Shown: one piece after another, positions 5,085-54,749 of the stretch
Position numbering within the stretch: position 1 is the stretch's first letter
How the letters are laid out: every line of letters starts with the position of its first letter
Origin: Owenia fusiformis
Taxonomy: Eukaryota; Annelida; Polychaeta; Sabellida; Oweniidae
NCBI GenBank assembly: GCA_903813345.2
Contig: CAIIXF020000001.1
Coordinates: forward strand, 53,275,885 to 53,339,884
Direction: 5' to 3'
Length of the DNA stretch: 64,000 nucleotides
Position numbers and translations under genes: made by a program
The notes under the pieces: model-generated
The model's database searches: none
Seen by the model: only the letters and a program-made list of their open reading frames with translations
What the model was told of the DNA's origin: nothing

Positions 5085-8000
5085 ATGATTTACAAGTTTT
5101 TCACAGTCTTTACTCTGACTGCATTGCTGTTGTTATCATATGCCTTTTGCCAGAAGATTGCACTTAATGGTGAATGGAAGCTTGTCAATTCCAATGGAAG
5201 TGAGTATTGTTGGTTTTTCTCACTGTTTGATTCGAACTCCCGTGCAGTGATACATCACTGCGGCGGGCAGGTGTCTCACCGTAAGCATGGTAACATCGTA
5301 ATAAACAACTGACGTGATTGGTTCTAGTCCCATGCTCAGGTCGCGTGATTGTAAAATGTAGACAATTTCATTGGTTGAATTGCGCGTATTAACTAATAAA
5401 CAACACGTGCGGTAAACTTTTATCAACACAACTTTTACTCAGAATTCCTTCCGCGGGGATTTGCTCTTATATTTCATTGATTTTGGAATATTTTGACAAA
5501 ATAATTATTGGTGAACATAAAAGAACATTTATTTTATAAGTTGTGTGAAAAACAAGTACATCTGTGACAAAAAGGGGGACTATCTTCCCCAAATTTTGGG
5601 GATTCCATAATCTGCCCGCCGCAGTGTCTATACCGAGACACTGCATAGGAGTTCGTGTTTGATTTTGTCATGACAGCTGGATCTTACTTAGTTTGCACAA
5701 AGCTATCTCTCTAAAAGATGGGAGACCCTATCTGTTGCAAGACTAACGCCTGGCGTAACCGTCACCATGTTATTCAGTGTTTTTTAAGTAGCGCAAGGAT
5801 CCTGCCATGACCGTGGTAATGTTATCGTGAAAGCCTGTATAACCGCGACAATGCTGTATTATATTGCAATGCCTGCCATGACCGTGACAATGTAATATAG
5901 TATTGTAAGTTCAGGTATGAGAGTGGTAATGTAGAAATTTACGATTAGGACTGCTATAACCGTGACAATGTGTATTGCAAAGCCTGGCATGACCATGGCA
6001 ATGTAATATAGTATTGCAAGGCTTGGTATGACCGCCATGGCAATGTGATATAGTATTCCAAGTTTGGGTATGAGAGTGGTAATGTAGAAATTTATGATTG
6101 CTATAATTGACCGTGACAATGTGTATTTGAAAACCTGGCATGACCATGACAATGTATTATGGGATCGCAAAGCCTGGTATAACCGTGACAATGTAATATT
6201 ATAGTATTGCAAGGCCAGGTATGAGGGTGGTAATGTAGAGATTTAGGCTTAGTTCTACTATGACCGTTATAATGTATTGCAATGACTAGTAAATATGTAG
6301 GACATTAATGCCAGGAATATCCTTAACAATTTTAAGTGATCCTCATTACAATTAAACAGTTTGATACTATGATCATGGTGTTTAACTACCTTAATCATGT
6401 CAAAATCAAAATTACTCCTATACATTAATATTCACATTCGCTTATAAACCACAATAAAGGCTACGGTCGCGCCAGGCTTCCACGATGACACTTCCAGGGT
6501 CATGACAGGCCTTGCAATAGAATACAGCATTGTCACGGTTATACCAGCCTGTCACGGTTATACCAGGCTTACACGATAACACTACCACGGCCATGGCAGG
6601 ATCCTTGCGCTACTTAAAAAACACTGATTAACATGGTGACGGTTGTGGCAGGCGTAAGTCTTGCAATAGATAGCGTGTGAAAGATGGCTATGTGCAAATA
6701 TAGTAAGCTGGATCCTGGAGCACAGGCATAGGAACAGACGGTTGGTTGTCCTGAAACAATATTCGACAGTGAATAGGTTGTCTGTCCCGGTGCAGATGTG
6801 TCATAATAAGTTTATGTGTTCCGCAAAATGCAATGTACAATTGATGCACTGTAGGCTAAATTTACTCGAGTCTCTAGCCTTAGAATAAGATCCTCCACTT
6901 TATTATAAATGCATGTATGCAAGACTTTTACTTTAATTACTTACTAAACCTAATAAATGATGAATTACATTAATTACTAAAAATACATTGATTTACTCTT
7001 TTTTGAAAGTTGAATTCCTTTATAAATAACTAAGAATTATGTAGATTTATTCATATATATTTACTAAATCTAATTGCTTATAATAACTAAAAATTACATG
7101 TACTTTTTACTCACAATTACTTAATCTAATCACTAAGATAAACAAGATGAATTACTTAGATTTACTCATAATTACTTAATCTATTGAATTCCTTAAAATA
7201 ACTAAAATTACTTAGATTTAGTCATAATTACTTAATATATTGAATTTACTAATTAAAAAAAAATTGAATTCCTGTATAAACAACTAAGAATTATGTAGAT
7301 TTAATCATATATATTTACTAAATCTAATTGCTTAGAATAACTAAAATTACTTTTATTTACTCATCATAACTAAATCTATGAAATAACTAAACATAACTTA
7401 GAATTGCTCATTATTATTAGATCTATTGAATTCCTTAAATAGCGAAAAATCATCATGACTAAATCTATAAAATAACTAAACATTATTTAGAATTACTCAT
7501 AATTATTAGGTCTATTAAATTCCTTAAATAACAAAAATTACTTAGATTAACTCCTAATTACATCTATTAAAATTCTTAAGATATCTAAAAATTACTTAGA
7601 TTTAGTTACAATTACTATTGAATTCATTTAAGTAACTAAAAATTACTTAGAATTACTCCTAAATATATTCAATTCTACTTAAATTTACTCATAATTGCTT
7701 AAATTTACTTATAATTACTTCATCTTATTACTTAAGATAAATAAGAATTACCTAGATTTACTCAGAATACTTAATCTATTGAATTACTTAGAATAACTAA
7801 AATTACATAGATTTACTCATCATAACTAAATCTATAAAATAACTAAACATTACTTAGAATTACTCATACAGTAATTACTAGATCTATTGAATTCTTTAAA
7901 TAACAAAAAATTACTTAAATTAACTCCTAATTACTAAATCTATTGAATTTCTTAAAAAATTAAAAAATACTTAGATTTAGTCATAATTACTTAATCTATT

Positions 8001-22612: not shown

Positions 22613-23172
22613 TACGCCAGGGGTGTAGCAATGATCCAAAATTAGGCAAGGCAAAGCCTCGAAGGATTTGGTGAAAAACCTTGAGATGCTGTATTGCTTA
22701 GTTCTAAGTTATATTGATCAAAAATAACTAGTAAATTAAAGAATACTGTCTCAACTCCTAATATACAATTTTTAAGTTTACAATGCCTGAAAGTTAAAGA
22801 TAATTGGCAACCAAACTTTGTGATTTTTCTCTCTAAAAAATATCTGTGGAAGATTAGAAATCTCAAACTATTTTTCCATATTTGTAACTTTTTAGATATC
22901 AATCCACTAGAAAATGTTCTTGACGTATCATTTACCTACATGTATATCTAATTTGTCATTAATAAAGTCTAGAACTTGGCTAATAGAAACAGCATCTCAA
23001 AGTTTTTCACCAAACCCTCTGATGCTCTTTGAATAGGTGAGGCAGAACTTTGGGCATGGGCTTTCAATCTAGTTGGGCAATAAAATACAATCAAGTCGAC
23101 TTCATTTAAACGATTTTTATTTTTCTGTAAAATTTTGAGCCTCGTCTGCCTCATTCCTGGCTACGCCCATGT
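22613..23172. mobile_element. MITE-like element overlapping the 3' end of the zinc-finger gene
   Basis: The left end GGGGTGTAGCAATGA resembles the reverse complement of the right end GGGCGTAGCCAGGAATGA. An internal inverted pair is clearer: GGTGAAAAACCTTGAGATGC near 22670 against GCATCTCAAAGTTTTTCACC near 22992. No coding sequence of its own was seen. The right end supplies the last codons, stop and an overlapping AATAAA of the finger gene. Confidence 0.6.
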
Positions 23173-24718
23173 AATGTATCTTGATATCATGTTTCTTTAA
23201 ACTTGCATTTGTTGTAAATGATTTTTGACAATACTGGCATTGGAAAGGTTTTTCTCCTGTGTGGGTCTGTTGATGACGCTTCCAGTTACAGACAGATGAA
23301 AAATATTTCTCACAGTATTTACATTTATGAGGTTTGAGACCATCGTGAATCACTCTTACATGTTCCAGTAAACTAGCAGAACGTGGGTAGGATTTATCAC
23401 ATAATTTACATTTGAATGGTCTCTCCCCAGTGTGTTTTCTCTCATGGATCTTGAAAGTAGAAGCATTGAGAAAACCTCTTTCACAATAAGAACATTTATA
23501 AGGTTGTTCCCCAGTGTGTTCTTTAACATGAGCCAACAAATGGGTTTGACGTGAAAAACATTTGTCACAAAAATTACATTTAAATGGTTTCCCTACAGTG
23601 TGTATTTTCTCATGGGCATTTAGTGTTTCAGGGCTCTTTAAAACCTTATCACAATATTTACATTTGAAAGGGTTTTCACCAGTATGTAAAGCTTCATGGG
23701 CCTTAAGCCTTGCAGCTTGGTTAAAGCTTCTTTCGCATGAACTACATTTATATGGTGAGTCACCAGTGTGTTTCCATTCATGAATTCTCATTGAATTACG
23801 ATGTTTAAAAACCATACTGCAATATTTACATTTGAATGGTTTCTCGTCAGTATGCATTCTCAGATGAGACCTTAGATTAGCAGGACGTGTGAACGCTTTT
23901 TGACAGATTTTACATGGATAGGGTCTAGATCCACTGTGTGTTTTTATATGTTCACTTAGATGATGTGGTTGAGCGAAATACTTTTCGCACTCCTCACATT
24001 TAAAAGGTTTATCGCCAGTGTGAATCCTCATATGGATTTTCTTATTACCAGAATGATTAAACGTTTTTTCACAATGGTCACACTTGTATTTTTTCTCAGT
24101 GTGTACTTTTAAATGTACTTTGAATTTTTTGTCTGTTTCAAATGTTTTTCCACATTCCAAACATCTTAGAGTCTCTGCATTTGTAGCAACAACACCTAAA
24201 TTGATTTCAAATCCCCCTCTAATATTCTCAATAGTTTTAGGTTTGTTGTTATTTGTTTGGTCAGATTTTATATTTTCTTGGAAAGCAGATACTGCATGAT
24301 CAAGTCGGGTTATATTATTTGGTTCAATGTCATTTACACAATCAATGTGTTCCTCTTTGAAACCATCCATAAAAACATGATTTTCAATGTCAACATTTTT
24401 TGCCCCAGATTCAAAGGCATAAATCATGTCACTAGAATTTGTCTCCACTGGCTCCTGCTTGACAGTATAATTAGCACCATTGCCTTTGATTTCATTATTT
24501 TCTTCAAACTGCGTACTTCTAGAGTCCTGGCTAAATGAAGTATAGGTGTCACTGTCAGTGCCACCTCTACTGTCCTGAGTACTTCTGTCAATAATAGAAG
24601 ATCCTGGGTTGTAAAATTGTTCCAAAGAAGTGTCTGGCATAAAACTGTCGACTGTCTCCCTTTTTATATTCAGCTCTAAAGAGATGTCTTTCCACGCAGC
24701 TGTTCTTGACAAATCCAT
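23117..24718 (-). CDS. C2H2 zinc-finger protein, 12 fingers, single exon
   Basis: An uninterrupted 533-codon reading frame. Residues 1-183 are acidic, Ser/Asn-rich and without a recognisable KRAB, SCAN, ZAD or BTB domain; VKQEP near residue 86 fits a SUMOylation consensus. Twelve consecutive C2H2 fingers run from about residue 184 to 515, most joined by TGEKP-like linkers (TGDKP, TGERP, TGEKP), as in sequence-specific DNA-binding factors. Fingers 10 and 12 have an extra residue between the zinc-binding histidines. The last 16 or so codons (GVARNEADEAQNFTEK) and the stop come from sequence resembling the end of the adjacent MITE-like element. The minus-strand stop TAA overlaps an AATAAA hexamer. 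An intronless frame could mean a retroposed copy or simply the usual one-exon finger array. Its orthologue cannot be named. Confidence 0.92.
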   Translation of the reverse strand: MDLSRTAAWKDISLELNIKRETVDSFMPDTSLEQFYNPGSSIIDRSTQDSRGGTDSDTYTSFSQDSRSTQFEENNEIKGNGANYTVKQEPVETNSSDMIYAFESGAKNVDIENHVFMDGFKEEHIDCVNDIEPNNITRLDHAVSAFQENIKSDQTNNNKPKTIENIRGGFEINLGVVATNAETLRCLECGKTFETDKKFKVHLKVHTEKKYKCDHCEKTFNHSGNKKIHMRIHTGDKPFKCEECEKYFAQPHHLSEHIKTHSGSRPYPCKICQKAFTRPANLRSHLRMHTDEKPFKCKYCSMVFKHRNSMRIHEWKHTGDSPYKCSSCERSFNQAARLKAHEALHTGENPFKCKYCDKVLKSPETLNAHEKIHTVGKPFKCNFCDKCFSRQTHLLAHVKEHTGEQPYKCSYCERGFLNASTFKIHERKHTGERPFKCKLCDKSYPRSASLLEHVRVIHDGLKPHKCKYCEKYFSSVCNWKRHQQTHTGEKPFQCQYCQKSFTTNASLKKHDIKIHYMGVARNEADEAQNFTEK

Positions 24719-24974
24719 ATTGATTTAAAGATCTTTTTGTTTTTTTGTAAGGGATTGCTTTATGAATGTCCATCAATGGTTAACTGTTATTCTAATACAT
24801 TCCATTTCATTTATGACACATTTCTGTCAGGGATGTTTGTGAAACAGTCTGTTTATCTACTCCTAGTCACCAGCACTTACTTCACAATCCATCTCTGTAA
24901 TTATAAAATAAAATTATAAGACTAAACATCTCTACATTTATTTACCTTTGCACATAGATGAAAAATATTGTCTA

Positions 24975-25312
24975 TTATCACTGGCGGATCTGGGGGGGGG
25001 GGCCCAGGGGCCCGGGCCCCCCCCCCTTGGGTGGGCCCAGAGAAAAAAAATTGTGCCCAAAAAAAATTTTGAGCCAAAAAAGGCCTTAAGGCCCCAAAAA
25101 GTAGGCCTTTTTGGTCATAAATTGGCCTTCTAAGGCCTTATTTTTTAATTTTAGACCAAATTTTGAAGAAAATGGGCCTCAAAATTTCAAAATTTGGGCC
25201 CACTTTTGGGTTTTTGGGGCCCAAAATTTTTTTCCGCGCAAGCGCGGACGTTTTTTCCACAGACCAGAAATTTGGGCCCCCCCCCTTGTTGGTTCCCAGA
25301 TCTGCCCCTGAT
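24975..25312. mobile_element. G/C-run-ended MITE, 340 bp
   Basis: The left end CACTGGCGGATCTGGG plus a G-run is inverted at the right end as a C-run plus CCCAGATCTGCCCCTG. The interior is built of GGGCCC and AAAATTT palindromic words. Overlapping reading frames are artefacts of this composition. Confidence 0.7.
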
Positions 25313-25522
25313 TATTATTTGTTTTGTACTAACCATCCTCCATGCAGCAGTATACCTGGGGGTTCACTGTATACAAACTTTGGTAGTGGTCCTATGCTGA
25401 ACCCTCAGACCTCAATATCTTCCCATACCAATCAATTAACTTAAATATGTTCCTATACCAACCAATTTGTACAATTTAAACCCCACTAAGGTAGCAACAC
25501 AATAGAATGAAATGTTGTATAA

Positions 25523-33800: not shown

Positions 33801-35763
33801 TTGCCATGCACAATTTATTGTTTGACAGCATCCAACCCAAATTTCAAGCTTCCTTTCCTGAAACATAATGACACATTTGCTAATAGTTAAAGTTAAAGGT
33901 CCAAAGGTTCAATATGATTCTCCTGTACTCCATGGAAAACTTATTTTTAAGTTATCTATATGATACCCCTCAGTAAATACATGATCACACCCCCAAGAAC
34001 AACTAGCATTCCATATTCAAAATATTCACACATGGATTTGAGTCATCATTCTGCAAAGGATAGGCCTAGTATCAACAAACCTTTAGGATTGGATTCAAGA
34101 TTCAAGTCTATTTCAAGACCGCCAACTCTCGTTGGGCTATTTATCACTATTACCTCAGTTATTCATCTAGTTTTACGTACCTTAGATGCTTCTTAATCTC
34201 TGTAGATATAAATATTGTTTCCAAAATTGTTGTGATGTGTGATAATTAGGACTAAATGTACTTTGAACAGGTCAACTGAAAAGAATGCAACGGATCTGGC
34301 AAAAAGTCTTGTGAGATATTCTCGTTCTAAAGCGGGAGATTGAAACTTTCAAATAAATTCAAATTAAACAAATCAGCGTCGAGATAGAATTGATCATGTG
34401 ATTTGCACATGATTGAACCATAGGTCAAAATGAGGTGAAGAGTCATCCATCGTGCCATTTGGGTTTAAGGATCTTATCAGTCCACAAAAAAACAGTGAAA
34501 TCATGTTTAAAATACAACTAATACTTTAAAATTGAGGCTGATTGGAACTAGCTGTGCAAGTTACAGTCACCAAGATGAGCTAATTTGCTTGTTGATACTA
34601 TCCTTCGAAGAATGATGACTCTGATCCATGTATTCGCATAACTATGAGAAGCCATAAAGGGGGAGGGGAGAGGTTAGCGGAACCATGGGCATTAATATTG
34701 AAAGCCCATGGCGGATAGTAACACTATAAATAGTAACACTTTCTTACTTTAGATGGTGCTGAAGGTCCTTGTTTATGTCTATATGTGAATAATCTGCAAA
34801 AGGCTAATAAGCCCATATAAAGCCCCTCCTTGGGAGGGGGTAACTAATATGTCTTAAAATATTTTTCAGCTGCTGTCCGACGGTTGAAAAATCCATTTAT
34901 TTTCTCATTTGGCCGTATTCTTAAGTTTTTCCCCCATATATAATAAATTTGGCCCATGACCTGTCTACGTAGAATTATGTCCAATGACATTTTCTTCTTC
35001 TTAATCCTCTAAATTTCAAAATGGTGGATGATTCAAAAAAATTACATGACCGACTAGGCGAATAGGCACACATTTGACTCCAAAAAATAAGTCATGTACA
35101 TTTATCTCATACCAGGACTATAGTCCTGCATCGAGCGCAATCTTTTGCCTGTACGATTACAACTTGGGAGAATTTGCTACGCCCCTTACACCTAAGATAC
35201 CTACTTCAATAGATTCCTGGGTATTTTGGCATTCCAAATTCCATCACTTTCCAAGATGACGGTTGGATTAAAAAGGGGATTCCCCGTTTGACTGACTCGG
35301 AAGCACCAATAAATGGAGGAATTTGACGGTTGAAATAAGTTAAATATTACACGCAAATATTGCGATCAAAAACGAAAATTTCTTTTTCTACTGTCGGACA
35401 GAAACTGAAAAATATTTTAGTGTATGTAAGACAAAGTCACTTACCTGTATGAGCATATGAAACTGGTACTTTCCAGAGACTTATGTGTGCTGAAACTGAT
35501 GAGAAGAACTTCCCGAAGGCCAGGGGCCCTATCATTGTAAAGTAATACCTCCAACTCAGGTTGCATTTTGGAACGTCTCTAATTTTTAAAAGTGGTATCA
35601 AATATAAAGATATTGAGAATAATTGTACCATTGAAACTGTCATAGGATACGGAAAATCACTAAGTAGTACTTTCCCCACAACATTGTTAGCTGAACTTAC
35701 AGCATACCACGCTAAACACAGTAAAACAATCCGAATTGCATCGGAGTATCTTTTTTCTGCCAT
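30869..35763 (-). CDS. SLC35E1: SLC35E1-like transporter (triose-phosphate/nucleotide-sugar transporter family), 6 exons
   Basis: Exons in transcript order: 35763-35445, 33333-33263, 32823-32686, 32086-31961, 31738-31493, 31090-30869; 1122 nt, 373 aa, all junctions GT/AG and in phase. The sequence follows SLC35E1 throughout: [124 protein letters not shown] and GVLLYNKTKYDQNQ. It should be a roughly ten-helix membrane protein, probably in the Golgi; the substrate of SLC35E1 is not established. ATG 35763 is preferred; an in-frame extension upstream would need a GTG start. An alternative ending exists: a GTAAGT donor just before the stop (exon end 30877) joins in phase to 30654-30585, giving the tail RDILELMVTEDYIVELAELILAC. 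Human SLC35E1 is about 410 aa. Confidence 0.95.
31160..31312. repeat. Dispersed repeat family A, copy 3
   Basis: AAAATGACACCACCTGCC at the start and ATCACCACTTCTGGTGATGA at the end; inside SLC35E1 intron 5. Confidence 0.65.
32866..33052. repeat. Dispersed repeat family D, copy 2, in SLC35E1 intron 2
   Basis: TGGTATTTGAGTTATCAAAG at the start and ACTTTGTTCGGTGAGATAAT at the end match the larger copy near 22 kb, shortened inside. Confidence 0.6.
34855..35421. mobile_element. 567-bp MITE in SLC35E1 intron 1
   Basis: The left end AAATATTTTTCAGCTGCTGT runs into CCGACGGT; the right end is its inverse, TCGGACAGAAACTGAAAAAT. It stops 23 bp from the exon 1 donor. The preceding 33.96-34.63 kb contains another diverged inverted pair around GAGTCATCATTCT. 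Confidence 0.65.
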
Positions 35764-36524
35764 GCCAGCAGTTTCCGGTTCCTGATGCCGGGTAATACTA
35801 AATACCACCTAGGTGTCCCGCACCTAGGTGCCCCCACCTGGGGACACCTAGGTGTCCCCTAGGGCACCTGGATTTTTAGACTACTGATTAACGATGTTTT
35901 AGTTAAGGAAAATCTTTGAAACTTTACAGTAACTTAAATGGCTTTTTAAATATTCCGTTGGTTGATAAATTAATACGACTCTGACATTGTATAGCATGAA
36001 AAAAGTGTTAAAGAAGTGGGCTTCGACGAAAAAAAATAAAATGGCCGCCACTTGGGTTTACGAGTGGTCGTGTATGGTCGAAATACATAATGTTTAACGA
36101 CGATATGCTCAATAAATTTGCTCAAAATACCGAAATATTATCCACAAAAGTCATGAACTAGTATTTTTTGCGAAATTATGTCGCATAATGAGGTCAATCG
36201 ACGGTCATAAAGACTCATAATATATCAACTTCTGATTTATAAATTTGTAGTCACATACAGTACATGTACTGTAGACTAGAGTCATTTCCGATTCGATTAT
36301 GTCAGTCACTGTGTATATTACACTCTAATTCTGTATAGAAATAGCCCATTTGTGTTGCGATTGTTCATTATAACACAGTAGCACAAGCTTTCCAATTTTA
36401 TGATCGTCTCAGCCAAGACCCATTGTATCCACATGACATGAATAATCAGATAATGAGGCCTGAATGGTGACTATAATCATAGTTCAAAATATATATATAT
36501 ACTGTTAGAAAGACTGCACACCAT

Positions 36525-36730
36525 TTGTCCAAATCGCAATCGACTAAATCCCACTGGATTCAGATTTGGACCGATGGAATTTGGCCTCGGATGATTCGGA
36601 TTGGATATGGGTTTCAGACAATTTGGATGATTGGGATTCAGCAATTGCGATTCGGACGACTGGGATTCAGACCAGTGAGATTCGAACCAATGGGATTCAG
36701 ACCATTGGGATTCAGACTAATTTCAGACCT
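36525..36730. repeat. Short tandem repeat GGGATTCAGACCAxT
   Basis: About ten degenerate units of 18-21 bp such as CCATTGGGATTCAGACTAAT, inside the 7.3-kb element. Confidence 0.7.
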
Positions 36731-37579
36731 ACCCTGTCAACATAAGTGTTGCTAGTAATACTGTAGTAGGTGAGGCCAGAGATGAGGCAATATTGCCTCA
36801 CCTTACAAAGCATAGTACATTTATCTAAATAAAGTCCTTGCTATTATATTATATTAGATATATTATAGAGTTCACAAAATTGGACAATGCCACATCTTTT
36901 AGTCACTTCAAATATAAAAAAACATCTGTTAGATTGAAATTGAAAAATCAGAGGTTGTGAGACTTATGTGGTTTTATAACATGGGGCCTATGGGGAATCT
37001 CCCTGAACTAGAAATCACATTTTTCCCATAGATTAAATACTCAAAGTTGATAAGCAATTTTCAAAACCATATTTCTAAAAGTGTTTTAACATGTAGATTT
37101 TAAGACTGAATTTTGACTGAATTATGAATATTTAATGACATAAATCAAAGAATTTCTACTCGCATCTAGTCTATTGTTCATCATGTATTAAGTATGGGGA
37201 ATGGACAAAATATTATAAATATTGGAAAACAAATCAGAACAACATAAACAGAGTGCATATATTTTAGGACACCCTGTATGTTAAAAACTGATCAAGTGCA
37301 CTATAAGATGAAATTCACAGGGAGGGATTCAACAAAATTTTAAGTGGCATGCAGTGGTTTGTTGGCCGAAACCACCATTACTCCTTCCTAAAAACGATAT
37401 TGACTCAAAATCTTTTGTGTGTATAAATGAATTTTATTAGGACAACTTGTTTTCTACATTCCACATGTATTTTTAAATGATAAAAAATAATGAAATAAAA
37501 CATTGAATATTTAATATTTAAACAACATAGTTTCATGTACATAATAATTAGATGTTAAAGATTAAACCAGGCTTAGTAA

Positions 37580-37830
37580 TTGTAATTGAAGGTCAAATCT
37601 ATGGTCAGATTTGAACATTTGAGAACTTATAGATGATTTTGAAAAAAGAAATTGGCCTTGAAGCAAGTTGAAAGCATACCCTTTTTGATCTTTTTTGACT
37701 TGAGAGGGTCAGTCAAGGTCAAACATAAATGTAAAGTCAGATTTGAACTTCTGAAAACTTTTAGATGATTTTGAAAAAAATTGAAGTCGGTCTAAACAGT
37801 ATTTGTTAAGTTATTGGAAGTTGTAAGAAT
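37580..37830. repeat. Dispersed repeat family B, copy 2
   Basis: Two internal units of the GTCAGATTTGAAC...TAGATGATTTTGAAAAAA motif with AAGGTCAA stretches; located inside the 7.3-kb element. Confidence 0.6.
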
Positions 37831-37839
37831 TTGTTACAG

Positions 37840-37913
37840 ATGCTGATTTCCAACCGTCAGCCACCAACCCCTGTCAAAAAATGGAGTATGTCACCACTTT
37901 TTGGTGGTGACAT
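37840..37913. repeat. Dispersed repeat family A, partial copy 4
   Basis: Only the right half is present, ending in GTCACCACTTTTTGGTGGTG. Confidence 0.55.
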
Positions 37914-38535
37914 AACAAAACTACAAGTCAATTATTTCACAAAGTAACAACATGATGCATCAATAGCAGTAGATCCTATTTTTATAACTATAGATACCAT
38001 AGTAGTTCAAGTTTGAAATTATGCAAACTTCAAGCTTAGCTCTACAGTTCATTACAGGGACTAATGATTGTCATTCTCCCTAATCTATATGTTGGAGGAG
38101 GAGGAGGTAGTCAGACAGAGTCAGTCATAATTGCTGATACAGTCAGCTTGAAGTATATGATCCATAATACACTATATAACTCAGGATGTAGTTTGAACTA
38201 CATGTATATACATGTAATCCTCAATGCAGAATACAATCCATGACGTAGTACATTCATAATAATCTCTGTTGTTATCCAGACTAACTCATTATTGATAAAG
38301 TAGTTCACTTCATATATTAACAATCCGAGTGGTTATGGTTGATCAGATGCAGCTAGATTCTCACTAAGTTTTATCTGCAGATCAAGGTACAACTGTTTCT
38401 ACATAGGACCGTCCACACCTGGAATAAGGACTATGAGAGATGGCAACAGGGTATTGCTGGTGGTAGTCATAGTTGGTTGTATAAATTTCATTCACCCTGT
38501 GCCAAGGCCAGATGGAGCAAGATGTTACGGCAGCA

Positions 38536-41182
38536 TTAAAGTGGAGAACAGTTTACCTGCGACCTTCTCATAACTCTGTATCCTGCAATTACAGTATCAA
38601 GACACAAATTATGTGTTATTCCAAACATCATCAAGTTTTTTTTACATGGGATACCCTTTTATCTCCCTATGCAATGATTACTAAGAAAGTTCATTTTTTA
38701 CTGTCATTTGAAAATAATCCCCTATTAGAAATCTTATGTATGACTTATAAAGTTAAAGTTTTAATCATTGTAGTCATCTAAAAATTCATATGCCCAATGG
38801 TATATATTGATATTGTAAAATGTATACTTCTTTAAAATAGTTAATCTCTTTCTCTAGTTGAAGAAGATTAGAATTTGATAACAGAGGCATTATACAACAG
38901 CATTTGTAAACAAGTCAAGGCATTGTTTTGAGAACTATCATTGAAGAAAATATTTTATAATCCTTAGTCCTTTGAGATATTTAAAGGGTAATATGCTACA
39001 TGTTAATGCAAACAATTAAGTCAAAGCATTGTTTATAAATGCTATAATGTAAGAATGTATTGTATAATCATAAGTTCTTTGAAAATTTTAATCTCTTTCT
39101 TTTTGTCAAGATGAAATAGATTTTGCTTTGATTGGATTCTTTACTGGGAAAAAGGAAAATCAAAGTTGAAAAATGTTGTTGTATTACAAGGAAAGAACAT
39201 TAGAATGTCAAAAATAAAGCCAGCGAATGGTTTTGGGTTAGAGCCGTTTTTTCAGTTTTGAACATTTTACATTGAGATCAGATCCCTAAAATTGATTTTC
39301 TCTTAGTTACATCTTCTAAATTGGATATTGTTTTTGAAATTCTTTTTATAATACTTTTCTTTACTAGGAAAAGGAAAATCAAAGTTGAAAAATGAATTTT
39401 TTATTTTTGTTATATTTCACTCCAACTGCATTAGCATTCTATAGGCTACAGAGGCTCACCAAACCATCAAACGCAAATAACCGTAAAATGTTGAAATCAT
39501 GAAATAATTTAGTGATTTTTTTCAAAAGAGTGCGCCATGTTGTATATTACAAGAAAAGAACATTAGAAAGTCAAAAATAAAGCCAGTGAATGATTTTGGC
39601 TAAGAGCCGTTTTTTCAGTTTTGATTATTTTACATTGAGTTCCGTAGGACCGATCCCTAAAATTGATTTTCTCTTAGTTACATCTTCCAAATTGAATATT
39701 GTTTTTGAAATTATCTTTATAATACATTTCTTTACCAGGAAAAAGGAAAATCAAAGTTGAAAAATGAATTTTTTATTTTTGTTATATTTCACTCCAACTG
39801 CACTAAAGCATTCTATAGGCTATAGAGGCTCACCAAACCATCAAACGCAAATAACCGTAAAATGTTGAAATCATGAAATAATTTAGTGATTTTTTTCAAA
39901 AGAGTGCGCCATGTTGTATATAACAAGAAAAGAACATTAGAAAGTCAAAAATAAAGCCAGTGAATGATTTTGGCTAAGAGCCGTTTTTTCAGTTTTGATT
40001 ATTTTACATTGAGTTCCGTAGGACCGATCCCTAAAATTGATTTTCTCTTAGTTACATCTTCCAAATTGAATATTGTTTTTGAAATTATCTTTATAATACA
40101 TTTCTTTACCAGGAAAAAGGAAAATCAAAGTTGAAAAATGAATTTTTTATTTTTGTTATATTTCACTCCAACTGCACTAAAGCATTCTATAGGCTATAGA
40201 GGCTCACCAAACCATCAAACGCAAATAAACATAAAATGTTAAAATCATGGAATAATTTAGTGATTTTTTTCTAAAGAGTGGGCCACCTTGTATATTACAA
40301 GGAAAGAACATTAGAATGTCCAAAATAAAGCCAGTGAATGATTTTGGGTAAGAGGCATTTTTTCTGTTTTGAACATTTTACATTAAGAGTTCAGTAGGAC
40401 CGATCCCTAAAATTGATTTTCTTTAAGATACATCTTCCAAATTGAATATTGTTTTTGAAATTCTTTTTATAATACCTTTCTTTACCAGGAAAAAAAGAAA
40501 TTAAAGTTGAAAAATGATTTTCTTTGTTTTTGTTAACTTGCTTAAGCTTGATGACATCACAATATTATATTATATCCTACCTCTAGTTATTTTTGAGACT
40601 ATTGTTGCCTGGTTTTTTAAATGAGTCAGCACAAACCACTGTTCATCTTTCTTGTTTTGTGTTGTGGTGTCCAAAACATTGAATTGCTCTTCTGGCTGAA
40701 ATAACAGAAAAATCAACATATCTGTTTGAAAGGGTTTTGACCACTGGATTATACTTTGACAAGTATAGTAATGATACTTTTAAGTGCATACTCACAAATT
40801 ATCATTATACATATTATGTTATATTATTACAAAAGAGCTACATGTTATACACAATGACACCATGAGGCATATATCAGGATTTACAAGAGCAAAATCCAAT
40901 TAGACTATAAACTTAATGAAATATTGAGGAATCTGTTCAATCAAATGAAATCCAGTATTAGAACAATTTACATACAGATGTAGATACTAGAAATTTCTTT
41001 TAGGTTATGCCTGGAACTAGTAACAATAATTATTTGAACATTAATATCAAACCTGATGACGATTCTAGTCTTGGGGAAAGCTTGGGTGGATGGAGGCAAG
41101 CTAACACTTTCACACAGCCTTTTACTATTTCAGCATCATTTGGATTGGACTTTGTACAGCACTTCGATGGCGAGTTGTAATG
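38536..41182 (-). other. Exon-like segments of unknown gene inside the 7.3-kb element
   Basis: Three minus-strand segments have acceptor and donor signals and open frames: 41182-41053 (HYNSPSKCCTKSNPNDAEIV and onward, 43 codons), 40695-40581 (PEEQFNVLDTTTQNKKDEQW and onward, 38 codons) and 38582-38536 (26 nt to a GTAAAC donor, or read through to a TAA). The second and third join in phase, giving SKITRGYRVMRRSQVNCSPL and then a stop. The first does not join the second in frame, so either an exon is missing, the transcript is non-coding, or these are decayed pieces. They could also be 5' UTR exons of SLC35E1, on the same strand downstream. No family was recognised. Confidence 0.3.
39183..40510. 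repeat. Tandem array of about 370-bp units
   Basis: Units begin near 39183, 39547, 39921 and 40296 at AAAGAACATTAGAAAGTC-like sequence; the two central copies are nearly identical. Each contains AAGCCAGTGAATGATTTTGG and CTAAAATTGATTTTCTCTTA. The last copy is partial. Confidence 0.85.
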
Positions 41183-41650
41183 CTGAAAGTGAACATTGAA
41201 TGATTAGGATACAAGAATACTGAATTATTAAAAAAAATGATGACTTAGAGAATGTAGATCTTATCAAGGCACTCATGAATGGAGAATCTTGACATGGAAG
41301 TGGTCGTATCTTGGTAGCAAAATGATATATAACAATATTTGAGCTTTAAAGCACTCTCATAACTGAGATGTTGAGATCGCAGGTGACACACATGTGTATA
41401 ACGTTGAACTACCCTTTGCATTCGTTTGACTTCACTTCTGAAAAGAGAGCTTCATCTTCACTCTTTCATTTTACAATAAATCTCACCGAGCCAATCGAGA
41501 GTTCATCGTCCAAATACGGACGACTTTCTATATGGTCATTTCCTCTGACATCCCCGCACAGTTAATGAGCACGTACATGTATTTTGCGTGTGTTCCTTCC
41601 ACTTTGCTGATTGGTTGAGAAAGGATCAGCATGGTAGATTTGAAATTATT

Positions 41651-42379
41651 GGGTTTACGAAAAAGACCGACCCCACCGACCACCGACCGGTCGATGTTTT
41701 CCACTGGTAGCCTCAAAACAGGGTTTGAAGAAAATGTGTAAAAGACCTACCATATCATGTAAAAGACCGAACATATTTGTAGCCTTAAAATATTAATAAT
41801 TTGATTTTGAATGTCAATCGTTGGGACTAGGCAACGGTTTTTACCGATTTTGTACCTTGCAACGAATGGCAAGCAAACAAATTGGGCATGACCGTCTCCT
41901 CTCAATTAATTGTCCTGCCTTAGGTCCTAACCTATCATTAACCAACCTATCGTTTCTACGGGAATCTATCCTAATTTTTTACTGAAATTTAACAATTTCG
42001 AAACAAAAATGATTTGTTATCGTCATAGCCTACTGAATACTGAACACGATATTACATGCGTTCTCTTATCGGGATTAAAAGTGACTTGCCATTTCAGTAC
42101 ACCATTAGAAAGCTTTTTTTTGTCATATCAAATGTAGTTTTTACCAGTTGACGTTTGACAACTGAGAAATCAAACATAACGTTACGACGTCAACATCGAC
42201 GATGTTTGTGTGTTTTTGTTATTGCGTTTCATATGAATGAACTTAATGCAATGTTACGTGCGTTTTTTTCCAAAGTGACTAAACAGGATGAAATTGGTCT
42301 TCTAACTAATCACGACCTAGTAAAGGTACTATAGTCATTGGATTCCCAGTGGTCGGCGGTCAGTGTTTTTCGTAAACCC
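41651..42379. mobile_element. 729-bp MITE with 9-bp target duplication, nested
   Basis: Ends GGGTTTACGAAAAAGACCGA and, inverted, GGGTTTACGAAAAACACTGA. They are flanked by the exact direct repeat GAAATTATT at 41642-41650 and 42380-42388. It lies within the 7.3-kb element and has no coding capacity. Confidence 0.87.
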
Positions 42380-42465
42380 GAAATTATTTATTACCCGGGC
42401 TGTCACAGGCACCAATCTTCGGGGCGGGGTTGCTAAACTGAAGTATACATGTAGTCTATACTAGC

Positions 42466-42530
42466 TGAGACTAACATTTATGTTAGTCTCAGATACAAAA
42501 GGCAGAGTGTAGTTTATAACTACACTCTGC
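42466..42530. repeat. Two adjacent perfect short hairpins
   Basis: TGAGACTAACA with its complement around TTTA (42466-42491), then GCAGAGTGTAGTT with its complement around three bases (about 42502-42530). Confidence 0.7.
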
Positions 42531-43119
42531 GCGCAGGGTAACGTTGAACTGACTTGACAGCAGGATCTCTGACTTACATGTACACTGGCTGCCTAGTCTA
42601 TATCCAATATCAGACTAGAGGATACAGTATTAGTCTAACTGACCAGGAACTGATATCTGGCTTTTGCTAGAGAAAATCTGTAGGATAGGGTCCTGGGTCA
42701 TCTTTGACAAGACAGTTGAATCTTTAGACTTGTTGTAAACATCTCATATAAATGATATAACGATGAACACATACAACAACTTTTGGTTTTGTAATTACAA
42801 AGACCAGTGTTGGAAATGCTGATAAAAAGTTGAGAAATTTTTATTTTCCGAAAGCAACATGGCGTCAGAAAAAAGTCTCGAAAAAAATACTTTTTTCTCT
42901 CTAAAATGTCACAAAACTACTTTTATTCTTACCTCATCAAGTAAAGTACAACTCCATTCATACTCTAGTACTATTATTTGACTTATATCAAAGTCTAATC
43001 AACCAATATTTCCCTATATTCCAAGCCCCACGCCGCCACCTGAAAAGGGACACCTGGAAAGGGGCACCTAGGTGTGGGACACCTACACCTAGGTGGTATT
43101 TAGTAACACCCCTGATGCC

Positions 43120-43525
43120 AAATTTAGGAAAAAACGAAATCAATATAATACATCCATAATATTGAACAAATTGAAAGTAAAGAGTTTCAAATACTATGTC
43201 AACAATTTTATTACTACTTCTATTATTTTATGTCTGATATGATTGATTGATACCTTTTTTGTGACTTTTTTCATCAGATGGTTTGACAGCTAGTTTGACA
43301 ACAATAGTTTGACATATAGACTTACAAAATGTCAGCGCCCATTACTTTTGATTTTTAGTCAAGTATATCTTGGCTTTACCGCAGTATGGGTTCGCATTGC
43401 GATCAAACAGTAAAAGTGGAAGTGATTAGAGGACTTCAAGACAATTATTAGGCCAAATACTTACAAATGACTTGTCCAGATGTGAAGGAAATAAAAATAT
43501 TCCGAATTTTTGAAAAAAAATAAAA
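43120..43525. promoter_or_regulatory. FKTN promoter; former shared promoter with SLC35E1
   Basis: This interval lies between the right target duplication of the 7.3-kb element and the fukutin start codon. Removing the element leaves only about 435 bp between the SLC35E1 and FKTN start codons, the geometry of a bidirectional promoter. No clear TATA box or named factor site was seen. The role is inferred from position. Confidence 0.45.
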
Positions 43526-46500
43526 ATGCGAAAAGTTCATGTCTTGTTTATCCTGGCAATTGTGAGTGTTCTCTACCTACTAATACAATTCTTCTTCGCC
43601 AAAGATGTTTCTCAGCATAAGCGCCAGCTATATGAGGTAAGAACTTTACATTTAGGTGTTTTGATTAGTATCGTCAGATTCTGTATATTTTGCACAGATT
43701 GGAGTCAACGTTCTTCCCAAAGTTTGACTTAAATCTAATCCAGATGGGTCATTCATCAAGCTATAGCAATCACTGCGGCGTCACAGACACTGCGACCACC
43801 GTGCGAGGTCGCAGTGACTGCGACTATTGACCTTATGCGATCAGAATTCCGGAATTTTGTTTATGGATACTGTTGTCACGTATTTCGTCTTATTGATGTG
43901 ACGTCATATAGAAATGATATAAGACATGATGGAATCACAAAATGGCGGACACGTGGCAGTTTTGAGCAAAAAATATTGTTGTTTCTCTTATGAAAACCAT
44001 GGGTCGGATATTTACCAGGTATGCCGATTTGACTAGATCATGAGTATATCTATATAAGTGCGAAGTTTGGGTGAAATTGATACTAAACATCAATGCCTAT
44101 AAGCGCCCCCCGTTTTTGTCAAGATCGGGGGGCGCTTAACCGCTATCTAAATCATGTCAGTACGATCTTAGACTTGGTATGTGCTCAGGATGAATGTTGA
44201 TCTAGTCAAATCGAACGCTTTCGTGAAAAATAAATCAACAAAGCACGAAATATAGAAGATAAACTCTCAAAACCAAGCATCTAAAGCTGGATGGCCTAAT
44301 TGTGACGTCACTAAAAGATAGAATCCATTCGGTGATCGCAAATCATCAATTGCGACCTCATTAACAAATTGCAGTCTGCGATGTCCCTGTGACCAGTCGC
44401 AGTGATTACTACGTGCACGTGCTTGTACACGTGTTAGCTATCCTTTCGAGACTTGGTCATGACTCATGTGACCAGACATTCTGCCAAACCTCTAACTGAC
44501 TTTTCTGTTGACCTGTTCTAAATACATTTACTCCTGATTATCCCATGTCAGAACAATCTTGAATATTGTATTTTCTATCGACATCAATTACAAAATATCT
44601 CAGGTATGTAAAACAATGGACAATTGACCTGAATAGTGCTAAATAACCCCACGAGAGTTGGTAAACTCGGGTTTTCTTTCCAATCCTCCCTGGACTTTAG
44701 TGTCAAATTTTCGAAAGAACATTGATTGAAATACGTCATATTTTGAATGCTTTTAATGTATGACCCATGTACAAGATGTTGATGGCTATCACAACAGGAA
44801 GTTCAAAGGCTTTACCTCTCAACTTATGTACTGCTCTCATTTTCATTTCAAATTTAGAAATGGATTTTCAGGGTAAAGATTAAAAGGTGGATAATGGATC
44901 GAGTTAAAGTTTATGGAAGTAAAAATGTTTTAGTATCTTCTGATTTATATATTTCCAGGTTCCAAACAAGCCTAAAAAGCCCTATGATGCAACTGATATA
45001 ATATCTGAGTTGGAATCACATCCAGCTGACATAAACACTGCACATGTTTCTTATGTAAGTTTTCAAATTATTATCATCATACTAAAGGAGGTACATTGTA
45101 AATCAAAGTTCATAAATGGTCTTAACATGCAACTCTCCCATTTGTCTCTTTTGTGTTATAGACTTTCCATAATTTGAACTTTTTGTTGTGTTCTTTGTAT
45201 GTTCTGTAATGTTAGACAAAAATAATTAAAATACCAAATATTTCAAAAACATTGCATAAGGCCATGGTATTACAGTAGATTTTCTACCTATCTTTTTCAG
45301 ACAATCTGTCGTGTTAATGCCTTGTTATTATAATATACCTACTACAGTAATGTTTAGGAACATTCTTCTTTTGAAAGTGTCATTTTCCAGACTGACATCA
45401 AATTGTTTGTGAAGCTTTCCAAAGACCATGGACTTCACCTGTTTGTGGTGGACCCTGTCATACTTGGACAAGTTATGTCATCAAATACGTCACATGAAGA
45501 CTGTAAATATTTGTGCCATAGTAAACTTGTGACATCATTTGGTGTGTTATCAACAGGATGGAAAAGTCAGGTAAGATGATTTATTGCATCGAGCTTGTGT
45601 CTTGCTCCCTCTCCCATTCTTTATTTTACAGGCTGAATGTGAAAATACATGCAGGGAGAGAAAGCTCAATACAAGACAAATTTTAAATACTATTGCAGCT
45701 GTCAAGGAATGCCTTAATGAAATAATCGCAATTCCTAGAACTTTTGGCACTTGAAATGTATATTTATCTCATTATGTGTAATATGATTCTGAATAGTTAA
45801 GATCCTTAAAAAGCATACCTCTTTATAAAATTGAATACAGTAGACAATCACTTTTTGAAATTAGAATGGTCCCATGTTATTTCTTGTTTAACATCCAAGT
45901 ACTGCATCTTCATTGAAAGTAAAATATATATTCTATACATGCATCCTATGTAACTAAGTACATTTTCACTTTATCTGAATTGGAACACATTATTTTATTC
46001 CAGGGATTTAGGTTAGAGGACTTCAAAGCTAGCGGGTTTGATGTAATATCTCTAGCAAGTAATGACCCAAGGAGTAATGTAATAGACTCTCTTACTCACA
46101 AAGAAATACCATCTCACTACATGTTCTCTCGAAGTAGAACACATGTTATACATGTGGTAGTATTCCATGAACGTTCTAATTCATATCTATGGCATGCACC
46201 AATCAAGTGGTCTCTAAATGAAGTCATGGTTGTTGGGAGGTCAAAGGTCAAACTGAGTGATCTTACATTTGGTATTAATGCAGGTGCATATGACAAGTAA
46301 GCTTGATTTTTATATTACTTGACTTTATTTTTTAATTTTCAAATAACTAAACTTACTGTGTTTACAATGTTTTATTTGAGAAATTAAAATCTTAGAAAAG
46401 TTTTATGAAATGAAATTAGTCTTCCCATTGAAGTATTTACTGAAAACACTAGCAAACATTCAATATTATAATAATTAATTACATTAATTACACATTATAA

Positions 46501-52500: not shown

Positions 52501-54749
52501 ACAAGTCTAATATGATCTCTGCATTTGAGATGAATGCTCTGCAGTTGAAACACTTATTCGGAAAGGTGAGAATTCTTTATTGTAGATATGATATCACTTG
52601 AATCGATGTATACATTGATGCAGTAAAATTGAAGATTTTTCTTAAATGTAACATGGTAAAGCTATTTTTTTCAATATGCATTATTATCCAACTGAATGAG
52701 GTTCATGGGGATATTGAGAACAAAATGCCTCCATCCATTTGTCTGTACCTATAGTTGTCTGTTTGGTCATGCATTGTCTAGTTTCAATGTCCTATGGCAC
52801 CTGATGTACCTTGGTCATGAAAGTAGTAAATTATAGTTCCTCTCTTTTTACTTTAACCACATGCCTCTTATTTTCAATGTCTTGCATGAATCTTTTCCAA
52901 AATTGATTTTTTTCTTTGTTGGATAGTTGTCTCACATATATGTTGTGCTGCAGTACAATGTATTCCTCACTCTCTAAGTTGCATTGTAGCCAGGTTGGCA
53001 AATCTGCACTGTTAGGATCTCTGGAAAGAAGTATTTCAAATGAAGGGTTATGGATCTGAATTAAACATCATTTAAAACCAATGGAAAAGTTCCAATGTAG
53101 CATCAAATACCCCAACCTGTTGCTTAAGTATTTTTAGATATTTAATGCATTTTATGATACAAAATATTGAGTAGATTCAGATAGAGCAGATGTTTTTCCT
53201 TTAATCTAATTTATCTCTAGGCCAAATAAAGCACTTAAAAAAACCTTGTAGGAAATAACTTTTGATTACTGGAAATTTAAATTAATTTTTCTTTTTGGAG
53301 ATTCAACTTCTCTTTTTGTCAGATCTTACCCATTTTTCGCAATGTTGCTCCTTAGATCCATTTTAGTGAACATCAATACAGAAAACTCCCCTATGACTCC
53401 TGGTTCAAAAGCTCACCTATTTTCAAAATGGTCGCTAATTTTGCCTCTGTAAATTCACTTTTGGCCCATTTCCTAGCTTTACATATAATTTCAGGTATCC
53501 TGCATTGTCATGTCACTGTAAAGAGTAGTTTAATGAAATAATTTTGTTACAAAAATCGGCTAAAAATTACCATCTGTCTCGCGAAATCCACTTTTGGACC
53601 ATTTGCCTTAAAACCTCTGTCGATAGGATTCCCGTTTTAAGTTATTTTTATTCAACATCAATACAGAAAACTCCCCTATGACTAATGGTTCAAAGGCTCG
53701 CCTATTTTCAAAATGGTCACTTTCCTAGCTTTACAAATAATTTCAGGTGTCGTGCATTGTAAAGAGTAGTTGTATGAAGTAATTTTGTTACAAAAAATTG
53801 GCAAAAAATTATATCCGCTTTTTTTATTTTCTGCCATTTTAGCCATCATTCATTTTTGAGCAACACCATGTGAGCCCAGTACCCACGGTACTATTTATTA
53901 TTACTTAGTTAACTTAGGTAATAAACTAAATTATGTTTTCAACCCAACATAAGTTAGGGAGATAGAGAATGCCTCTGTCCATCCGTCTGTCAGGGAATTG
54001 ACTCAAATCCCATTGATCTTATATTTACACATATGCATATACCTGCACATAAATCTATATGCTCACTCGTCTAGATATTGATATCAACACTGTCCCTGTA
54101 CGCAAGGCAATTGTGTATAATTTTTAATCTACTTTTCAGGTAGAGGACAGCTTTGAGTTGTCCTTTCAGCAGGGTGGTCTTAAGCTGGATGTCTTTTTCT
54201 TCTACACAGAATCTGATTACATGTGGAATGGTGGGACACAGGCCAAGACTGGCAACAAATATAAGTAAGTCCATAATCAATAGCATCAGTAGCAGGGAAT
54301 CAATGATACGAAAAATTCAGAAACCCAACATTATTCAGATTGTAAAGTTTTGATTATTTTTGAATCCCTGTAATATCTTTATTAATTATTTCTCCACAAG
54401 CGACTATATAACCAGCACATTCCCAGCAAGTAAAACTGAAACCCATACCCACATTGAGACATACATGTATACGGTACATGTTATCAGGTCATGTGAATGG
54501 TCTTACTTGTATTTCAGGTACATTTTTCCAAAGTTTGACCTTTGTTGGACGGAGCTACTTGACTTGAAAGTGAGGGTTCCATGTCAGACAGAATCATACA
54601 TACAAGCTAACTATGGAAAGAATTGGATTGTTCCAGTAAAGGAATGGGACTGGAAGAAAAGTCCTCCAAATGTTCGGGAAAATGGACGGTGGTCAACAAA
54701 GGAATGGGACAAAGTGATTCAGCTATATGAGATTAATAAAAATGAGTGA
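43526..54749 (+). CDS. FKTN: Fukutin (ribitol-phosphate transferase family, LicD-like), complete, 8 exons
   Basis: Exons: 43526-43636, 44959-45054, 45391-45570, 46004-46296, 51790-52052, 52432-52565, 54140-54264, 54518-54749; 1434 nt, 477 aa, all GT/AG and in phase (human fukutin is 461 aa). Residues 5-25 form a type II membrane anchor ([20 protein letters not shown]), then a short stem and the lumenal domain. Diagnostic stretches: [64 protein letters not shown] followed by SKDVDIGIW with the metal-binding DVD at about 328-330, [38 protein letters not shown] and [14 protein letters not shown]. Fukutin adds ribitol-5-phosphate during alpha-dystroglycan O-mannosyl glycan synthesis (family knowledge). 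Intron 4 (5.5 kb) holds a large inverted-repeat element ending about 30 bp before exon 5. Confidence 0.97.
43766..44410. mobile_element. 645-bp MITE in FKTN intron 1
   Basis: Inverted ends around AATCACTGCG and GGTCGCA, with internal inverted GATTTGACTAGATCA. A central perfect 12-bp-stem hairpin, AAGCGCCCCCCG and its complement, lies at 44101-44136. Confidence 0.7.
48724..48882. repeat. 159-bp near-perfect hairpin
   Basis: Arms of nearly 70 bp run from GGAATAAATAATGATAGGCC through ATTCAGCAC and GGACAGAATGT to a short loop containing CACCTTCGGTTCGTG. The right arm is an almost exact inverse. Confidence 0.88.
49250..49550. repeat. Dispersed repeat family B, copy 3
   Basis: Repeats GAAGCAAGTTGAAAAA and GTCAGATTTGA, and immediately precedes a copy of family C. 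Confidence 0.6.
49555..50060. repeat. Dispersed repeat family C, copy 2, FKTN intron 4
   Basis: It shares GTGCATTCTT, TACATGCAGTGCATTGAAGC and ATTATTTCTCATAAAACCCA with the copy near 25.5 kb, in the same order and orientation. Confidence 0.7.
52118..52262. repeat. Dispersed repeat family A, copy 5, reversed
   Basis: ATGTCACTACTACAAGTGGT opens it and GGCAGGTGGTGACATTTTGC closes it, the reverse orientation; in FKTN intron 5. Confidence 0.65.
53353..53817. repeat. Tandem duplication, FKTN intron 6
   Basis: Two copies about 290 bp apart share ACAGAAAACTCCCCTATGAC, TATTTTCAAAATGGTC and AGTAATTTTGTTACAAAAA-like sequence; the second copy has internal deletions. Confidence 0.75.

Follow-up and report, generated by a model that had tools for sequence, protein, structure and literature searches.

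A 7.3-kb transposon insertion, probably Mutator-like and non-autonomous, between the head-to-head genes SLC35E1 and FKTN of Owenia fusiformis

In the annelid Owenia fusiformis, the start codons of a transporter gene and of the fukutin gene FKTN are held apart by a segment of 7.3 kb, and we asked what this segment is, how it came to lie there and what it may have done to the gene beside which it landed. The window, by which we mean the whole stretch of DNA analysed, measures 64,000 nucleotides (GenBank assembly GCA_903813345.2, contig CAIIXF020000001.1, positions 53,275,885 to 53,339,884 of the forward strand), and coordinates of the locus are given within it. At a probability of roughly 0.75, we read the segment as a non-autonomous, cut-and-paste, Mutator-like (MULE) deletion derivative of an ancestor with a Ulp1/C48 domain, which a transposase supplied in trans placed in an 8-bp target near the SLC35E1 start. 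The features that define the locus are the following.

35445..35763, minus strand: coding exon 1 of an SLC35E1-like transporter (Pfam TPT), with the ATG at 35763 and the end placed by eye at a GTAAG donor
35782..35789, unstranded: left target-site duplication (TSD) CTGATGCC, exact over 8 bp
35790..43111, plus strand: DNA transposon, predicted to be non-autonomous, 7322 bp, with a longest stop-to-stop frame of 98 aa
35790..35815, plus strand: left terminal inverted repeat (TIR), 26 nt; bp 1-40 of this end are identical in 11 of 11 long copies
43086..43111, minus strand: right TIR, 26 nt, differing from the left TIR at 2 positions
43112..43119, unstranded: right TSD CTGATGCC, exact over 8 bp
43526..43636, plus strand: coding exon 1 of FKTN, with the ATG at 43526 and the end placed by eye at a GTAAG donor

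The original prediction had argued for a transposon insertion from inverted ends with TACTAAATACCACCTAGGTG in common and from an exact 8-bp flanking repeat, and both observations hold: the same CTGATGCC stands at 35782-35789 and at 43112-43119, and the 26-nt TIRs, of which the left reads GGGTAATACTAAATACCACCTAGGTG and the right, inward from the right, GGGTGTTACTAAATACCACCTAGGTG, mismatch only at positions 5-6 (AA/GT). Similar ends, which that prediction expected to recur elsewhere in the genome, do recur. The ends of the long-copy family can be written as GGGTNNTACTAAATACCACC. Genome-wide, the end pattern with up to two mismatches allowed is matched 66 times on the forward and 66 times on the reverse strand, 132 together, against none in either direction for a control in which the pattern was read backwards. 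Since pairs of 8-mers drawn at random from the window agree in only 93 of 2,000,000 draws, and since the 132 end matches face none in the control, the TIRs and TSD of the window copy are not a product of chance. The idea that the segment is an assembly artefact or a chance inverted repeat is left with practically no probability by the same 132-to-0 comparison and by the long copies elsewhere, at least 10 in number, which carry these ends too; of all 11, nine are flanked by TSDs of their own. A second haplotype did not come to light in searches with 43112-43600, the right-flank stretch that includes the FKTN start, and with SLC35E1 exon 1, each of which matched a single place. The TIRs, the exact TSD and the long copies elsewhere confirm that 35790-43111 is a DNA-transposon insertion, and the event at SLC35E1/FKTN is one of an ordinary kind.

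We then describe the family to which the element belongs. Used as a genome query, the first 91 bp returned 66 candidates, and all 40 that were scored match (40/40); because 40 of the 66 were scored, the copy counts that follow are lower bounds. There are at least 11 long copies including that of the window, from 7322 to 11,800 bp, each with different flanks (at least 10 others, of 7.4-11.8 kb). Their ends all start GGGT, and an exact TSD, 8 bp long in eight cases and 9 bp in one, surrounds nine of them, the copies at C11:29.4 Mb and C5:27.6 Mb having none; the TSDs of the long copies are variable 8-mers. The same ends are found on shorter elements, some miniature (557-601 bp) and some intermediate in size (1.1-4.5 kb). 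Among these, a first batch of 19 loci, three of which (L016-L018) yielded no end pair, showed a TSD around every one of its 17 end pairs, two of which represent one duplicated site, and a second batch showed TSDs in 10 of 12. Locus L015 contains two miniature elements, at about 500 and 5840, which lie 5340 bp apart with the same TSD and near flanks, and which probably reflect a tandem duplication that took in the insertion.

The conservation of the family is concentrated at its edges. At the left end, mean pairwise identity across the 11 long copies is 1.000 for bp 1-40, 0.996 for bp 41-86 and 0.947-0.963 further in; at the right end, across 10 long copies (C11:6.44 being omitted), it is 0.984 for bp 1-40 and 0.915-0.965 further in. 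Near-invariant ends around a less identical interior are what one would expect if the ends are read by a transposase, and in the mechanism that we propose a transposase would recognise these ends and insert the element into an 8-bp target.

The interior of the window copy holds three further features.

35840..35859, unstranded: perfect palindrome GGGGACACCTAGGTGTCCCC, 20 bp, around one subterminal CACCTAGG site
39173..40535, plus strand: tandem array of a 374-bp unit, 3.7 copies
41651..42379, unstranded: nested MITE of another family, with GGGTTTACG ends and a 9-bp TSD, GAAATTATT, at 41642-41650 and 42380-42388

Other subterminal CACCTAGG sites start at 35806, 35821, 43065 and 43086, and the set may include binding sites for the transposase. 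The tandem array, with a period of 372-379 bp, occurs in nine of the 11 long copies; C10 is without it, and none is listed for C6. The nested MITE, which belongs to a high-copy family of its own (434 first-look candidates, 40 of them scored), is common to the window copy and four siblings, one copy being without its first 188 bp, and has no match in the remaining six long copies. The window copy is accordingly a member of a five-copy subfamily that shares the nested MITE. It differs from the four siblings by 1.69-1.75% substitutions (96.0-96.4% identity once gaps are counted) and from the other six long copies by 5.0-7.4%, and the siblings differ among themselves by 0.63-0.92%. Given that the window copy stands about 1.7% substitutions from its siblings, the family has probably been active recently, and the insertion may still be polymorphic. 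Against C1:56.4, substitutions per 500 bp range unevenly along the element from 0.0% to 5.4%, so that conversion or misaligned repeats may bias any age drawn from these figures.

What could have moved such an element? The 11 long copies yielded no transposase. In one of them alone, the 11.8-kb C5 copy, a 260-aa frame gives a Peptidase_C48 (Ulp1) match over the cut-off (E 7.5e-6), and PHD models give no match in that copy up to E 0.1. Three copies, those of the window, C3 and C10, are without the C48 stretch, their left breakpoints falling at about 6030, 5821 and 6360 in C5 coordinates; because the breakpoints differ, we infer repeated loss and not one gain, and the stretch is probably ancestral. 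In a genome search the C5 frame matches itself, three weak places and a relative family, and the best relatives of its C48 stretch are found in this other transposon family, at 53-57% identity for the main pieces. One copy of the relative family can be placed as follows.

G000:C1:9446400-9456300 (C1:9.45 Mb): copy of the relative family, L037

A 928-aa frame of L037 is 57% identical to the C5 C48 stretch over 249 aa. It matches C48 over the cut-off (2.2e-6), MULE under it (E 2.6e-4, 21.8 bits against a cut-off of 27.6) and, insignificantly, SWIM (E 0.7) and a PHD-like model (E 0.2), and by eye its residues follow a D / D / C-x-x-H / E layout, which presumably fits MULE transposases. The preceding frame, set off by a stop codon, holds a CG-1 domain over the cut-off (2.7e-6); PHD-like matches in the relative family, at E 0.081 and 0.2, fall under the cut-off. 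The ends of the relative family start GGGACG or GGGTCC/GGGTCA, and 14 ends among the matches listed form six pairs, every one with an exact TSD (five of 8 bp, one of 9 bp). The first frame of L037 also contains a long coding tandem repeat, with about 53 residues per unit.

When the transposase frame and CG-1 region of the relative were compared by tblastn with the 11 long and five intermediate copies, nothing matched except the C5 copy, in its C48 stretch. An autonomous copy was sought with the transposase core of the relative and set aside, the genome search returning the relative family only; the CG-1 region found that family and two C1 places at 41-47% identity. The Pfam MULE model has eight matches genome-wide, with the relative family not among them and none near the listed ends, and a search of solved structures with the relative's core gave one match, at chance level. 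The transposase would be supplied in trans, probably by kin of the CG-1/MULE-like/C48 protein encoded elsewhere in the genome.

The label non-autonomous Mutator-like is drawn from the TIRs, the TSDs, the C48 domain and the CG-1, weak MULE and C48 matches of the relative, evidence that we consider good but incomplete. Against the label count the failure to find a catalytic domain in the family itself, the MULE match of the relative, which is under its cut-off, the absence of the relative from the places listed by the genome-wide MULE search, and the two of 11 long copies that have no TSD. KDZ (Zisupton-type) elements, in which a Ulp1 domain and 8-bp duplications can also occur, offer another account, in which the segment would be a non-autonomous member of that group: the 8-bp TSDs of the long copies and the C48 domain of one of them fit it, and the genome has 10 KDZ domain matches. 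None of these 10 places, however, lies near the 100 ends listed of the 132, and the closest protein relative matches MULE and CG-1 with no KDZ match up to E = 1, so that a KDZ origin appears quite improbable. Other superfamilies were rejected on their ends or targets. Ends of hAT elements, the superfamily to which Ac/Ds belongs and which has other ends, begin CA(G), against GGGT in all 11 long copies; Kolobok and piggyBac duplicate TTAA, against the variable 8-mers of this family.

A Mutator-like origin can also be set beside described elements. The family has TIRs as MULEs do, and its 8-bp TSD lies within the 8-11 bp that PMC6446971 gives for MULEs. Its C48 domain in the C5 copy recalls the Ulp1 domains that PMC2836005 reports in hydra, lancelet and plant Mutator elements; a figure legend there refers to Ulp1 and PHD domains aligned from Ginger1 and Mutator transposases. 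Unlike Ulp1-bearing MULEs, the window copy has no recognised protein and no MULE domain was found in the copies of the family, and the relative family departs from them by a CG-1 domain ahead of the transposase. A full-text literature search found no published Mutator-like element with both Ulp1 and CG-1; among papers judged by title and the start of the abstract, none on a transposon-borne CG-1 was found; and a topic-based literature search, with subjects and not the family sequence as the query, found no published description of the family.

Rehavkus, known from arthropods and annelids and placed as an outgroup to MULEs, combines a PHD finger with a minisatellite according to PMC6446971 and PMC13359780; the first of these lists it with 9-bp TSDs. 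Its minisatellite lies ahead of the 3' TIR, and its PHD finger is in the transposase. By description, our family differs from it in the TSD, which is 8 bp in eight of nine long copies with a TSD and 9 bp in one; tandem arrays are present but lie mid-element, and PHD is weakly matched, in the relative family alone. In life-style only, the elements resemble maize Ds as non-autonomous partners; Ds elements, according to PMC3260210, share short ends with autonomous Ac and vary greatly in size, some being internal deletions of it. Mutator-like elements of animals are little described. This family extends what is known of them: its ends have no known transposase, one copy retains a Ulp1 remnant, and its relative shows matches to CG-1 and, weakly, to MULE.

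How the insertion bears on its neighbours depends on what they are. On one side, three exon-bearing frames are open, each matching Pfam TPT, and we take this TPT-family transporter to be SLC35E1; on the other, Pfam FKTN_N is matched by two of the three pieces tested, which represent later exons, and the piece at 54354-54746 has no family match. The head-to-head order that had been predicted, transporter on the minus and FKTN on the plus strand, is thereby upheld, and so are its distances: 26 bp (35764-35789, TSD included) lie between the element and the SLC35E1 ATG, and with the flanks joined around one TSD the start codons are 432 nt apart, where about 435 had been estimated. Of the original upstream DNA, SLC35E1 retains 26 nt and FKTN 406 nt. 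With the element or without it, the transporter ATG is the first in-frame Met after a stop codon and a CCGGAA site stands 15 nt before it. That site and the 26-nt distance make it probable that the element landed in the SLC35E1 core promoter or in its 5' leader. The CpG observed/expected ratio of the joined interval, 0.68, reaches the 85th percentile of 434-bp window tiles (median 0.32); high CpG was dropped as a mark of the interval, the value being unremarkable against 0.72 in random genome stretches.

An effect on the SLC35E1 promoter is plausible from this arrangement. Transcription might begin in the 26 nt still present, or inside the element with an element-derived leader, or expression might be reduced; FKTN, with 406 nt of upstream DNA kept, is probably little affected. 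Should the leader begin in the element, the 120 nt that run up to the SLC35E1 ATG would fold with a predicted -56.1 kcal/mol (z -3.39, 1 of 200 shuffles being as stable), and the nearest upstream ATG would stand at -224. Such a strong predicted hairpin, the 26 nt of original DNA left upstream and the low divergence within the subfamily are also what one might see if SLC35E1 were silenced or lost on this chromosome and the insertion were a rare allele. We consider this unlikely, as the three frames are open with their TPT matches and exon 1 is single-copy. With a clean, apparently recent insertion beside that single-copy exon, and with an empty state that can be inferred exactly, the locus makes a test case for the way a gene gets by with almost all its upstream DNA moved 7.3 kb off.

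A bias of the family towards promoter cores, compatible with a Mutator-like identity, would make the SLC35E1 insertion an instance of typical targeting and not of chance. Any of five promoter-type motifs occurs within 40 bp of the TSD at 14 of the first 33 sites (long copies 5/11, CG-1 family 2/6, short and intermediate elements 7/16), which are mostly copies most like the query and omit the second L015 copy. The corresponding counts are 32 of 643 among tiles of the window and 6 of 120 among tiles cut from 20 stretches drawn at random from the genome. CCGGAA/TTCCGG occurs at seven of the 33, compared with 6/643 and 0/120 (Fisher p against window tiles: long copies 0.0068, CG-1 family 0.0019, first MITE batch 0.00091). 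For the three groups, the CpG observed/expected ratio within 60 bp lies between 0.85 and 1.07, as compared with 0.72 for 20 stretches of 560 bp taken at random, with per-site p of 0.02 for long copies and 0.012 for the first MITE batch. The five motifs, however, were picked after the first sites had been viewed, and 12 held-out MITE sites gave two with any motif, one with a CCGGAA-type motif (p 0.12) and a CpG ratio of 0.81 (per-site p 0.27). Nor is there a per-site CpG excess in the CG-1 family (p 0.63, with shorter flanks), and 21 solo ends, scored for CpG alone and some of them by eye in other repeats, stand at 0.62. Because the enrichment at the first 33 sites was not confirmed at the 12 held out, we keep promoter targeting as a lead, at slightly less than even odds, and do not claim it. 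A broader proposal, in which an animal Mutator-like family would aim at promoter cores and repeatedly swap gene leaders for its near-invariant, hairpin-forming end, with SLC35E1 transcribed from or through transposon DNA, is for now doubtful.

Other parts of the window yielded minor observations. An uninterrupted C2H2 zinc-finger frame of 535 aa on the minus strand at 23120-24724 is possibly a single-exon gene. The stretch at 7001-8000, where G+C is as low as 0.185 and the GC skew is -0.395, is perhaps of low complexity. GPPPLLVPRSAPD is present in frames both at 25121-25444 of the window and at 3521-4477 of L040, and its presence in both places marks it as probably a dispersed repeat.
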